Assembly (NCBI GenBank): GCA_903903985.1 | Contig: CAIVAT010000018.1 | Span: 62,001 to 126,000, forward strand | Direction: 5' to 3' | DNA length: 64,000 nucleotides | From: an uncultured Bacteroidales bacterium | Lineage (GTDB): Bacteria > Bacteroidota > Bacteroidia > Bacteroidales > FEN-979 | Shown: positions 11,452 to 28,329 of the stretch, piece after piece | Position numbering within the stretch: the stretch's first letter is position 1 | How the letters are laid out: each line of letters begins with the position of its first letter | Notes under the pieces: model-generated | What the model saw: only the letters and a program-made list of their open reading frames with translations | The model's database searches: none | What the model was told of the DNA's origin: nothing | Translations under genes and position numbers: made by a program

Positions 11452-11898
11452 CTAATTATCTGAGGCGAACCATTCGGCGTAAGAATTAGCCGTCTCCCTC
11501 AGGCGCATGCTGTGAAGCTTGACCTGGGCAGGCAGCAATTCACTGATTCGTTTTGCAAAATCAAGCAGGAAATTTTCACTGGTTGGCTGGTACGGCAAGA
11601 ACACGATATTGGTAAAAGGCTCCCCGAGATGCTGAATGTCCTGCTGCGGAACCGATGAATTCAGCAAAAGCGCATGGTCAAGGGGATCAACAATCTGTTT
11701 CTTGATAATCTTTTTCAGATCACCGAAATCGATGACCATTCCAAGTTTTGTAGAATCCTGGTCGGAAATGGGACAGCCGATCACCGTAACGGAGAGTTCA
11801 TAGGAATGCCCATGAACATTTTTACACGGTCCATCATACCCCATCAATGCATGGGCTGCTTCAAACCTGAATTCCTTGGTTACCCTGATCCGGTTCAT
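11452..11898 (-). CDS. queD: 6-carboxytetrahydropterin synthase (QueD, PTPS family)
   Basis: A 148-residue PTPS-fold enzyme. Zinc ligands H16, H29 and H31 (AAHAL, VHGHSY), the nucleophilic Cys25 in the CxxxHGH arrangement that marks QueD, and an Asp-His pair (D74-H75 in DPLDHALL) plus C-terminal Glu in LRETANSYAEWF are all present. Known QueD converts 7,8-dihydroneopterin triphosphate to 6-carboxy-5,6,7,8-tetrahydropterin, the second step to queuosine and preQ1. QueC, QueE and QueF are not in this window. It lies 53 bases after mntP on the same strand; a second, different PTPS paralogue is at 26448-26861. Confidence 0.8.
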   Translation of the reverse strand: MNRIRVTKEFRFEAAHALMGYDGPCKNVHGHSYELSVTVIGCPISDQDSTKLGMVIDFGDLKKIIKKQIVDPLDHALLLNSSVPQQDIQHLGEPFTNIVFLPYQPTSENFLLDFAKRISELLPAQVKLHSMRLRETANSYAEWFASDN

Positions 11899-24983: not shown

Positions 24984-25721
24984 TTATTTCCTGTCTCCGA
25001 GAAACCTCAGCAGGAATAAAAACAGGTTGATAAAGTCAAGATAGAGTGTGAGCGCCCCGAGAATGCTGAGTTTCCTTGAATTCGCCTCACCATATTCACC
25101 CGCTCCGGCACCGATTCTTTTCAGGCGCTGCACATCATAGGCGGTGAGCCCGGTAAAGACCAGTACCCCTACAACGCTGATGATATAATCCATGGTACCG
25201 CTGTGCAGGAAGAAATTCACAAGCATGGCCACCATGAGCCCAACCAGACCCATCATCATGATGGATCCGAATTTTGTCAGATCGGTTTTGGTTGTGTAAC
25301 CGGTCACTGCCATGATGCCAAACATGGCAGCCGTGATGGCGAAGGTCTTATAAACGGAAGCTGCGGTATAGATTAGCAAAATAAAACTCAGGCTCATGCC
25401 CATCAGAATAGAAAAAGCGATGAACAAAAGTGTCAAAACGGCAGGTGACAATCGCTGAAATCCAAACGACATCAGCAATACAAATCCGATAGGAGCCAGC
25501 ATGACAATCCAGCCATAGGGGGTCATGACCCCGGTTTCAACATTTCTCAGAGTGCCCATCAGTTCTGCAGAAGAGCCAAACCAATACGCGGTAACTGCTG
25601 TAACGAACATGGCCAGGGTCATCCATCCGAAGACCTGGGTCATAAATGATTTTGCAACTGCAAGATCCTGAGTGCCTTGCTGCGTGCCAAACAATCCATT
25701 GTTATTGCTTTGTTCAAACAT
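24984..25721 (-). CDS. Bax inhibitor-1/YccA family membrane protein
   Basis: About 245 residues with seven membrane helices after a short glutamine/asparagine-rich cytosolic start; ATG 25721 is preferred over TTG 25727. The family signature around TAYDVQRLKRIG and the C-terminal LYLDFINLFLFLLRFLG are clear. Members are pH-sensitive calcium-leak or protease-modulating proteins; the function in this organism is not known. Confidence 0.85.
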   Translation of the reverse strand: MFEQSNNNGLFGTQQGTQDLAVAKSFMTQVFGWMTLAMFVTAVTAYWFGSSAELMGTLRNVETGVMTPYGWIVMLAPIGFVLLMSFGFQRLSPAVLTLLFIAFSILMGMSLSFILLIYTAASVYKTFAITAAMFGIMAVTGYTTKTDLTKFGSIMMMGLVGLMVAMLVNFFLHSGTMDYIISVVGVLVFTGLTAYDVQRLKRIGAGAGEYGEANSRKLSILGALTLYLDFINLFLFLLRFLGDRK

Positions 25722-25815
25722 TTTCAATCTCCTTTTTAAGTTAATGAATCAATGAATGAATGCATAGAATGCAAACAATGAGAAAAAAACATAATCATTA
25801 TTCGCTCCTCATGCA

Positions 25816-26430
25816 TTAGTGAAGCTTGGTGCTGATCAGGTGCAGAAATTCGGCCCGGGTTTTATCCCGTTCAAAAGCTCCGACAAAATCGGAGGTCGTT
25901 GTGACAGAATTCTGTTTCTGAACGCCACGCATGGCCATACACAAATGTTGTGCCTCAATTACAACTGCCACCCCAAGGGGTTTCAGGGTGTCGTTGATGG
26001 CCTCTTTGATTTGCATGGTAAGCCGCTCCTGTACCTGCAAACGTCGGGCATAAATATCCACCACCCTGGCAATTTTGCTTAATCCGGTGATATATTTATC
26101 TGGAATATATGCCACATGGGCTTTCCCGATGAACGGAACCATGTGGTGCTCGCACATCGAATAGATCTCAATGTCTTTAACAATCACCATTTCTCGATAG
26201 TCCTCCCTGAATTTCGCCGAACTCAGTATCTCCTTGGGATCAAGCGCATATCCCTGCGTAAGGAATTGAATGGCTTTGGCAATGCGCAGCGGGGTCTTCT
26301 CCAATCCTTCGCGGTTCGGGTTTTCCCCGATGAGGCGAAGAATTTCTTTGTAATGGAAACTCAGCTCCTCGGTTGTTTTTTGATCAAATTCCTCGAACTT
26401 TTCGTAATTAAGCTTTCGTTTGGTTGCCAT
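25816..26430 (-). CDS. folE: GTP cyclohydrolase I
   Basis: A 204-residue T-fold enzyme. Zinc and substrate motifs are CEHHMVPF (Cys and His ligands), VQERLTMQI, and HLCMAMRGV with the second Cys. It converts GTP to 7,8-dihydroneopterin triphosphate, feeding folate, queuosine (QueD at 11452) and tetrahydropterin pathways. It lies 17 bases downstream of a PTPS gene on the same strand, which suggests a dedicated pterin route. Confidence 0.92.
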
Positions 26431-26447
26431 AAGAGTTTATTTGCAAA

Positions 26448-26861
26448 TCATTTACCATAATATTCTACAATATTGTTTTCTGATTGTTCAAGGCGCACGC
26501 AATGCAGGATGCCTCCAAGTTTTTCAATATCATCCGCAAGTTCATTCCAGATCCCAATAGCCACATTTTCACTTGTTGGCACTTTCCCTGCCAGGAAATC
26601 AACTTCGAGGTTAAGGTTTTTATGATCAACCTTCTGCAAAATCTTTTCATCAATCAATTTGCTGACGTGACGAAGATGGATCACCAAACCCGTTTCAGGA
26701 TCAACTTCGCCTTTCACAGTGACAAAAAGGATGTAATTATGCCCGTGCCAGTTTGGATTGGAGCATTTGCCGAAGACCGTAAAATTCTCAGTATCCGAAT
26801 ACCCCGGAAGAAATAACCGGTGTGCCGCGCTGAAATGCTCCCTGCGGATAATGTAGATCAT
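26448..26861 (-). CDS. 6-pyruvoyltetrahydropterin synthase, animal-type (PTPS)
   Basis: A 137-residue enzyme from ATG 26861 (the open frame to 26969 adds a hydrophobic, unlikely N-terminus). Zinc ligands H14, H39, H41; catalytic Cys33 in the long-spaced KCSNPNWHGHNY arrangement; Asp79-His80 in VDHKNL; and Glu125 in LEQSENNIV. This spacing and the GEVDPETGLV and DHKNLNLEV stretches follow vertebrate PTPS much more than QueD. Expected reaction: dihydroneopterin triphosphate to 6-pyruvoyltetrahydropterin, towards a biopterin-like cofactor. It sits in an operon with folE; no sepiapterin reductase is visible here. Confidence 0.82.
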   Translation of the reverse strand: MIYIIRREHFSAAHRLFLPGYSDTENFTVFGKCSNPNWHGHNYILFVTVKGEVDPETGLVIHLRHVSKLIDEKILQKVDHKNLNLEVDFLAGKVPTSENVAIGIWNELADDIEKLGGILHCVRLEQSENNIVEYYGK

Positions 26862-26871
26862 GGTGATTGGA

Positions 26872-27918
26872 TTAATGAACAAAAGTACTGCTTTTTTTCC
26901 TTTTGAAAAAGTTAAACCGGGTACCCCCCCATATACGGAACTGGGCGACATCATAGTTGAACATCGCATTGCTTAATTTAGCCGGCACTTCATTGAAACC
27001 GGTCTGAATGGAGCCGCCCAGAAACCATTTGTCGGAATTATACCCAAAAGCAAACCGGCCACTCAACTGGAATGAAAACTCAAAATCGGAAAAGGATTGC
27101 AATTCACTGGAATAGGTATGGAACTGGGCAGCAACACCGGGAAAAACAGCCGCAGTGACATATACGTTTTTAAGAAACACCAGGGTATATGCATATCCCG
27201 GTGCCAAACCTATTGAATAAAAGTTGCCCCCCAGGATATGATTCGCCGACGGGATATTATACTCTATAATTAACTCTTCAGGGATAATCCCATTTGCAGA
27301 GCTGATTTGGTAATAAAGGAATGATGGCCTCACCAAAAGACTGCCCGCACTCCTTTTCTGCCGTTCGTTCTGGATGAATGCAGCGCGAATGGAAAACCTT
27401 CCGGGATTATAAATCCAGTAAGCCGACACCCCCACCGAAAAGGTAGCCATATCCGGTATAATGTATTTTGTGTCATCTGGCCGTTCAGGATAACTGATGT
27501 AGAACCCTTTGTATTGCTGAAGAAAGAGTTCGGCGGCAAAGCTGCGTCCGAATGCACTGAAACGCAGATCGAGTGTTGATGTGTTCCCGTATTTCGCTTT
27601 GTCACTTTTATAAAATGGATTGTCGATGGACAATACAAGTCCAAACCACTTCCAGTAACCTGCCAGTCCCACCTGGACATTGACATTCGGGCGGTATTCG
27701 ATCTTGTCGAGGTTTCCGGCATTGATTCTCAGCGAGGCATTTTGAAAACTGAAAAACAGCCTGGCCGTAAGCTTATGCGGATACCGCTCAATGTAATTGC
27801 TGTCAATGGTTGAATGCATGCTGTCGGATGCCGGAATTAAAGGAAGTGCAACGGAGATCTTTGCTGTTGCGAGCACCAGAACAAGCATAAATCCATTCGC
27901 CATGGGGCTGTAAGTCAT
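26872..27918 (-). CDS. DUF4421-family outer-membrane-like protein
   Basis: A 348-residue exported protein of a Bacteroidota-restricted family (DUF4421). N-terminal signal (residues ~6-25), then alternating aromatic-ended strands typical of an outer membrane beta-barrel: KLTARLFFSFQNASLRI, GLAPGYAYTLVFLKNVYVTAAV and the last FRIWGGTRFNFF. Function is not known to me. ATG 27918 or ATG 27903 could be the start. It follows the small membrane genes at 27925 and 28364, where atpB often sits in related genomes. Confidence 0.7.
   Translation of the reverse strand: MTYSPMANGFMLVLVLATAKISVALPLIPASDSMHSTIDSNYIERYPHKLTARLFFSFQNASLRINAGNLDKIEYRPNVNVQVGLAGYWKWFGLVLSIDNPFYKSDKAKYGNTSTLDLRFSAFGRSFAAELFLQQYKGFYISYPERPDDTKYIIPDMATFSVGVSAYWIYNPGRFSIRAAFIQNERQKRSAGSLLVRPSFLYYQISSANGIIPEELIIEYNIPSANHILGGNFYSIGLAPGYAYTLVFLKNVYVTAAVFPGVAAQFHTYSSELQSFSDFEFSFQLSGRFAFGYNSDKWFLGGSIQTGFNEVPAKLSNAMFNYDVAQFRIWGGTRFNFFKRKKSSTFVH
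26880..26887 (-). promoter_or_regulatory. Candidate -7 box for the PTPS-folE pair
   Basis: Reads TACTTTTG on the minus strand, 19 bases before the PTPS ATG at 26861. It lies in the end of the DUF4421 gene. It supports the short PTPS start. No -33 box is seen. Confidence 0.35.
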
Positions 27919-27924
27919 GCTCCT

Positions 27925-28329
27925 TTATTGAACTTTATGATCCGGAAGGGATGGTTGGGTGTACCTGATGATGCATACTGATTCAAAAATGGTGTAACAC
28001 AGGTAAAGGAGGAAAAAACCAAGCATGAAAGGAATCGCATCGGCACGGTTGAAAAAAGCGTAAGCGATCATGACACCGGCATAGATAAAAAGTTTAAGAA
28101 GAATGGTAAGCAGAAAAGTGTTTACAAATTTAATGAACCTCTTTCCGGTTGACCTGAGCAGATAATAAAAAGAAAGGAGTGAGGTTGCAATGAAAAAAAC
28201 AAAAAGGAAAGGCAGGGCCGGAGAAAGGTAAGACCTGGGGAGAAGGAACATCATGATCAAGGCAATTGCTCCAAGAATGGCTGAAAACACAAGCAAATGC
28301 TTAAGATATTTAAGGTAAGCTGAATTCAT
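27925..28329 (-). CDS. Small four-helix membrane protein, ATP-synthase-neighbourhood type
   Basis: 134 residues with four predicted membrane helices (about 12-30, 38-58, 68-92, 100-120) and a short charged tail. I do not recognise a named family, but it resembles the unassigned membrane protein found between AtpZ and AtpB in Bacteroidota. It has no catalytic motif. Here no ATP synthase subunit follows. Confidence 0.6.
   Translation of the reverse strand: MNSAYLKYLKHLLVFSAILGAIALIMMFLLPRSYLSPALPFLFVFFIATSLLSFYYLLRSTGKRFIKFVNTFLLTILLKLFIYAGVMIAYAFFNRADAIPFMLGFFLLYLCYTIFESVCIIRYTQPSLPDHKVQ

Follow-up and report, generated by a model that had tools for sequence, protein, structure and literature searches.

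We found that an uncultured Bacteroidales bacterium carries, beside its gene for GTP cyclohydrolase I (FolE), a gene whose product is, by motif, fold, and tree, a genuine 6-pyruvoyltetrahydropterin synthase (PTPS) of the PTPS-II subfamily. The predicted chemistry of this protein is very probably that of PTPS. We think it rather likely that the PTPS, FolE, and an SDR supply a tetrahydropterin cofactor for phenylalanine hydroxylase, with FolE shared with folate synthesis. According to this model, FolE would make 7,8-dihydroneopterin triphosphate, which would be the substrate of the neighboring PTPS and would be converted by it to 6-pyruvoyl-tetrahydropterin. An SDR, for which the best candidate is a 234-aa protein (G000:C84), would reduce this intermediate to a tetrahydrobiopterin-type cofactor. 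The cofactor would be used by a long phenylalanine-4-hydroxylase in an operon for tyrosine/homogentisate breakdown, and FolE would be common to the synthesis of the cofactor, of folate, and probably of queuosine. We infer the catalytic activity of the PTPS, the identity of the reductase, and the role of the product as hydroxylase cofactor from the genes described below.

Here the window is the whole stretch of 64,000 nucleotides that was analyzed. Genomes, loci, families, and genera carry the codes G, L, f, and g, respectively, and G000 is the window's own genome (5.2 Mb in 195 contigs, 87% complete). We used a close-relative sample of 41 genomes, made up of G000 and 40 relatives, and a phylum sample of 374 genomes, which includes G000.

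Motif, fold, and tree place the window protein in PTPS-II

The PTPS gene lies at positions 26448..26861 on the minus strand and encodes 137 aa. The FolE gene (25816..26430, minus strand, 204 aa) lies 17 nt downstream on the same strand, and its product scored 255 bits against NCBIfam TIGR00063 (cutoff, 181.6). A gene for a DUF4421 protein (26872..27918, minus strand; Pfam PF14391) lies 10 nt upstream of the PTPS gene and was marked there in some relatives only. On the other side, the gene for a Bax1-I family protein (24984..25727, minus strand; Pfam PF01027) is a syntenic neighbor for which no role in pterin metabolism is known. A QueD-type paralog (11452..11898, minus strand, 148 aa) lies outside the PTPS-FolE pair and serves as a contrast; these two proteins are the only PF01242 matches in G000, with no third. 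The original prediction had the coordinates of the PTPS, FolE, and QueD-type genes correct.

In local alignments, the window PTPS was identical to human PTPS at 65 of 129 aligned residues (about 50%) and to the window's own QueD at 44 of 120. A phmmer search of the PDB returned human PTPS as the best match (E = 5.8e-38), followed by rat (1.7e-35) and C. elegans (4.4e-28) PTPS, with weaker matches to P. aeruginosa 2oba (7.2e-8) and E. coli QueD (1.2e-6). Human PTPS shares with it the motifs around FGKC.NPN.HGHNY, DHKNL, SEN/TENVA, and NNIV.Y.G. Five residues separate the Cys (C33) from HGH (C-SNPNW-HGH), giving CxxxxxHGH. According to the available part of one paper, this is the signature of PTPS-II, and those of QueD (PTPS-I) and PTPS-III are CxxxHGH and ExxHGH, respectively (PMC5041015). 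We found CxxxxxHGH in 143 of 143 relatives scanned, many of which had been found by a pattern that contained NPNWHGH. The protein had been predicted to be a vertebrate-type PTPS. The long Cys-to-HGH spacing, the flanking motifs, and the match to human PTPS bear out the animal type; "vertebrate" is too narrow, and the type is that of PTPS-II.

An AlphaFold2 model of the window PTPS (pLDDT 94.9, from a 27-row alignment) had its best structural matches in rat, human, and C. elegans PTPS (TM by query length, 0.88 to 0.91), with E. coli QueD behind the animal proteins (TM, 0.75 to 0.79). Phylogeny had been proposed as a check, and in our tree of 61 rows, which held 7 QueD-like rows and from which cyanobacterial and PTPS-III rows were absent, the window PTPS grouped with animal PTPS and apart from QueD. 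A split with support of 96/96 set the 7 QueD-like rows apart from all PTPS-II and animal rows; long branches meet at this split, as the program warned. In an AU test, placing animal PTPS outside the bacterial group gave a p of 0.58, and the animal proteins may branch either inside or outside this group. Placing the window PTPS with QueD gave a p of 0.43; this constraint does no more than slide its row down the QueD branch and is not decisive.

The window PTPS scored 59.6 bits against the QueD profile TIGR03367, under the cutoff of 89.25. The paralog at 11452 scored 85.1 bits, just under the same cutoff, so its QueD-type name rests on motif and tree: it has three residues between Cys and HGH (C-KNV-HGH), the PTPS-I/QueD motif, and falls on the QueD side of the tree. 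The prediction of a separate QueD-type paralog thus held, although the profile cutoff was not reached. The window PTPS has the Pfam PTPS fold in common with QueD and differs from it in the Cys-to-HGH spacing and the tree branch, with QueD encoded by its own gene. It shares CxxxxxHGH, active-site residues, and fold with the PTPS-II proteins of COG0720, which include animal PTPS and, in the part of the paper available, Synechococcus PTPS-II (PMC5041015). It differs from that subfamily in having Gln for Glu at residue 126, in adjoining the only folE found, and in belonging to a genome without a recognized sepiapterin reductase.

A long phenylalanine-4-hydroxylase is the candidate consumer

We found a long phenylalanine-4-hydroxylase in G000 (L093 9387-11249; G000:C22). 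It matched PF00351 and scored 754 bits against NF010657 (cutoff, 346), and its best PDB match was the phenylalanine-4-hydroxylase 7vgm (E = 1.3e-152). The match to the long bacterial enzyme (NF010657, 7vgm) runs along nearly its full length. Upstream lie genes of the CoA-transferase, homogentisate dioxygenase, HPPD, fumarylacetoacetase, and flavin-reductase types, an operon of the homogentisate type. Some scores in this operon were low; homogentisate dioxygenase scored 20.5 for its C-terminal Pfam domain (cutoff, 21) and 38.3 for its N-terminal domain (cutoff, 20.2), and the N-terminal domain of HPPD scored 32.0 (cutoff, 27). The natural pterin of the long bacterial phenylalanine-4-hydroxylase was not found in the literature, among the matches listed. 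As a separate observation, the C-terminal part of the G000 hydroxylase had no Pfam match, in a genome that had no PCD match.

The hydroxylase was present in 17 of the 41 genomes, and 16 of these 17 also had PTPS-II (Fisher p = 0.002, with kinship uncorrected). The exception was G004, whose contig breaks off 63 nt from FolE on the side where PTPS would be, so the missing PTPS is probably an assembly gap. Across the phylum sample, we found the hydroxylase in 126 of 374 genomes and, by our own tally, a PTPS-II match in 124 of the 126. The other two, G263 and G405, belong to one genus of f60 and have the long hydroxylase without a PTPS-II match; they may use another pterin.

Pathway clusters and the spread of PTPS-II in the phylum

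In all seven f52 loci (L284 to L290, picked for suggested adjacency), we found, in this order, genes for the hydroxylase, one or two peroxiredoxin-like proteins, PTPS-II, FolE, and an SDR; the clusters of G192 and G342 hold one small gene more. The SDR of G276, the sole f52 SDR tested, had as its best PDB match 2bd0, the Chlorobium tepidum sepiapterin reductase (E = 3.4e-34). PTPS-II, FolE, SDR, and SDR genes follow one another in G370 and G160. In G095, an SDR gene lies just downstream, with the intervening stretch masked by an opposite reading frame. The pair stands without an adjoining SDR in G204, G115, G064, G282, and G385, and in L189 a PCD gene (over the cutoff) lies upstream of PTPS-II and FolE on the same strand. 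These loci were picked where coordinates already hinted at clustering, plus a few others, and are not a random sample; in G043 and G070, ORF picking did not resolve the region. In the tree, L218, an Ignavibacterium, fell with f52. By gene content, the f52-type and similar clusters speak most strongly for a role of this phylum's PTPS-II in making biopterin.

The peroxiredoxin-like genes of f52, recognized by eye, lie between the hydroxylase and PTPS-II genes and are possibly a hint of peroxide from an uncoupled hydroxylase.

With a PTPS-II profile at a threshold of E = 1e-15 or better, we found a PTPS-II-like gene in 353 of the 374 phylum genomes; four of the matches were weak (1e-16 to 1e-27). 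This profile gave a single match in G000 and thus does not pick up the QueD of G000. About 310 of the 374 genomes had two or more PF01242 genes by our own count, so a QueD-type gene usually accompanies PTPS-II. In about 43 genomes (again our count), the PTPS-II-like gene was the sole PF01242 member, so PTPS-II might act as a QueD in some genomes. Many genomes of families f21, f27, f28, and f29 had two PTPS-II profile matches, perhaps a second PTPS-II-like or hybrid paralog.

PTPS-II is far more widespread than the hydroxylase (353 versus 126 of 374 genomes), and 11 of the 27 PTPS-II carriers among the 41 genomes lack the hydroxylase. The hydroxylase is thus not the sole reason for PTPS-II. These counts favor a reading in which the PTPS is a true one whose main product is another pterin, such as a glycosylated biopterin, a pigment, or a signaling pterin, and in which use by the hydroxylase is minor or confined to certain lineages. 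The C. tepidum sepiapterin reductase makes L-threo-tetrahydrobiopterin, according to a title cited in the available part of PMC7520308, which also fits this reading. Against it, the hydroxylase gene stands beside PTPS-II in the f52 loci, and we consider another main product possible but unlikely.

A 234-aa SDR is the candidate reductase

A cofactor made by the PTPS, FolE, and an SDR would require a reductase, and the original prediction had suggested a genome-wide look for sepiapterin reductase. We found none over the TIGR01500 cutoff in the 41 genomes, with the SDRs of G000 scoring far below it. TIGR01500 gave none over the cutoff in 14 control genomes either, so this test is weak. G000 has 12 SDR matches, of which we read four (C144, C195, C6, and C84). 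The C144 protein is 35% identical to an f52-cluster SDR (1e-33), but its NCBIfam and PDB matches identify it as FabG. By eye, C195 has sugar-nucleotide-like neighbors, and C6 adjoins genes of an acyl-carrier-like kind. We set these three aside.

In the relatives, one of the best TIGR01500 matches (L055, in G037) was over the cutoff as the benzil reductase NF005381 and under it for TIGR01500. Its solved matches had an SDR first and mouse and human sepiapterin reductases further down. Another top match (L056, in G029) was 43% identical to L055. Both were rejected as well.

The fourth G000 protein, the 234-aa SDR (G000:C84:11353-12054), stood out by co-occurrence and by adjacency in relatives. 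Its orthologs are present in 28 of the 41 genomes and agree with the presence or absence of PTPS-II in 38 (26 with both, 1 with PTPS only, 2 with the SDR only, and 12 with neither). For the 16 other families, the corresponding counts were 3, 1, 0, and 12 (Fisher p = 0.007, with kinship uncorrected). We also searched an 80-genome phylum subset, chosen to include PTPS-II-lacking genomes and many families, and found a clean group of 15 genomes with at least 231 bits, the next match scoring 134 bits. In this subset, the SDR did not track PTPS-II, which was present in 13 of 15 SDR carriers and 54 of 65 noncarriers (p = 1.0). It did track the long hydroxylase (8/12 versus 7/68; p = 8e-5), the long and short forms being judged from split matches and reading-frame length. 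The SDR gene directly follows the long hydroxylase gene on the same strand in G162, G330, and G152, which represent three other families; in G000, it adjoins neither the hydroxylase nor the PTPS gene.

The 234-aa SDR had no specific family by profile, and 2bd0 was not among its best 60 solved matches; the C. tepidum enzyme, the best solved match of the f52 SDR, was not recognized in G000. The 234-aa SDR could be a pyruvoyl-tetrahydropterin reductase or a recycling reductase. Plasmid searches with this SDR and with the window PTPS gave no match. We found no PCD (PF01329) in G000 (87% complete) or in the 25 genomes of its own family; it was present in 2 of the 41 genomes and 7 of the 14 controls. 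PCD bears on cofactor recycling, not on synthesis. The prediction had named, as findings that would together count against it, a tree joining the PTPS to QueD or PTPS-III and a genome without a reductase. Our tree does not join it to QueD, and a candidate reductase exists in G000, although none was recognized there by TIGR01500.

The active site is kept, with Gln at residue 126 in one clade

We aligned 153 bacterial rows, in which several genomes are present twice, with human, rat, and C. elegans PTPS. We found H14, C33, H39, H41, D79, and H80 in all 153 bacterial rows and the three animals, and E98 was invariant across the 153 bacterial rows. We take the Asp-His pair (D79 and H80) to be PTPS active-site residues. 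Residue 126 was Glu in 132 bacterial rows and the three animals and Gln in 21 rows. The latter come from 18 genomes of genus g1 (including the window's own) and one of g5, which makes 19 distinct genomes, with two rows repeating G008 and G010. The Gln codon in the window is CAA. When the rat numbering is set so that its Cys is Cys42, residue 126 aligns to rat Glu133, presumably the pterin anchor; a literature search for a pterin-anchoring Glu133 returned nothing. The Glu at this position, which is outside the published subfamily signature, is thus absent from the window PTPS and its clade. The roles of the active-site Cys and the Zn-binding histidines of PTPS are described in the available part of PMC2229834.

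This substitution raises the possibility of a genus-specific shift, with Gln126 in place of the anchoring Glu making the PTPS slower or letting it accept another pterin. The restriction of Gln to 21 rows, which come from g1 and one g5 genome, against Glu in the other 132 rows and the animals, is what would be expected of such a shift. However, the remaining active-site residues are kept, E to Q is a conservative change, and the hydroxylase is still present in several Gln126 genomes. The PTPS gene is also under strong purifying selection (pN/pS, 0.10 to 0.19 in 10 comparisons that gave 0.03 to 0.10 for FolE), which indicates that it is not decaying. We regard a shifted activity as quite improbable.

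FolE pairs with PTPS and also feeds folate synthesis

In all 27 loci examined (the window's own and 26 relatives, L003 to L029), the FolE gene came after the PTPS gene and on its strand, a pairing far beyond chance. FolE was marked by blast in 73 of 80 contigs fetched by PTPS similarity; some of these contigs end early, and in 5 the PTPS gene was itself masked by greedy ORF choice. FolE is frequently followed by Bax1-I and FabD genes, which we take as plain synteny. At L194 3334-4062, on a contig labeled Draconibacterium, the Bax1-I gene beside FolE is broken into two reading frames. The available part of the AGeNNT network study describes a cluster of 1183 sequences that carry the PTPS-II motif and have two neighbors, one of them GTP cyclohydrolase I (PMC5445326). 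That cluster, likened to the window PTPS by motif and FolE neighbor, is probably the same group; in the part available, its FolE edge coverage is at most 0.13, whereas FolE is almost always adjacent here (PMC5445326). Our literature search, which covered subscription journals poorly, gave no other paper on PTPS-FolE function in Bacteroidota among the matches listed.

The original prediction held that the pair may make a tetrahydropterin cofactor and not queuosine or folate. The first part is consistent with the PTPS-II identity, the hydroxylase in the genome, and the f52 clusters. The exclusion of folate failed for FolE. We found a single FolE (PF01227) in G000, one in 40 of the 41 genomes, and two in G037, and FolB is encoded in G000 and in 36 of the 41. 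With a sole FolE found and FolB encoded, FolE must also feed folate synthesis in G000, and the pair is not reserved for the cofactor. FolE probably serves queuosine synthesis as well. In G023 (same family, 99% complete), folE is kept with no PTPS beside it or found by search (L306 8678-9828), and a small gene directly upstream of FolE matches window positions 27925-28329 by eye. This absence is probably a real lineage-specific loss. Thus, the two genes are separable, and FolE has work of its own.

A role for the PTPS itself in folate or queuosine synthesis, as a PTPS-III or a second QueD, is very improbable. Its gene adjoins the only FolE found, its usual neighbors in the window's class point to no pathway, and some genomes have PTPS-II without another PF01242 gene, but by motif the stretch reads CSNPNWHGH, with CxxxxxHGH and not ExxHGH, FolB is encoded, and a separate QueD-type gene falls across the 96/96 split.

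Discussion

We favor the reading that the PTPS, FolE, and an SDR supply a cofactor for phenylalanine hydroxylase, a kind of system that is already known. Three points are worth following: the phylum-wide spread of PTPS-II, the clade with Gln126, and the 234-aa SDR as a candidate. A bolder combined claim, that nearly all members of the phylum share biopterin-type pterins as an overlooked trait, that the 234-aa SDR, which tracks PTPS-II among order-level relatives, does the reduction in the window's lineage, and that the pterin-anchoring Glu was swapped for Gln, we hold to be speculative and on the whole doubtful. In the parts available, a 2026 review describes biopterin as rare in bacteria and archaea (PMC13259868), and a 2016 paper predicts only about 50 COG0720 proteins to act in biopterin synthesis (PMC5041015). 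If the function of PTPS-II is the one that its sequence indicates, one large phylum would make wide use of biopterin-type cofactors.
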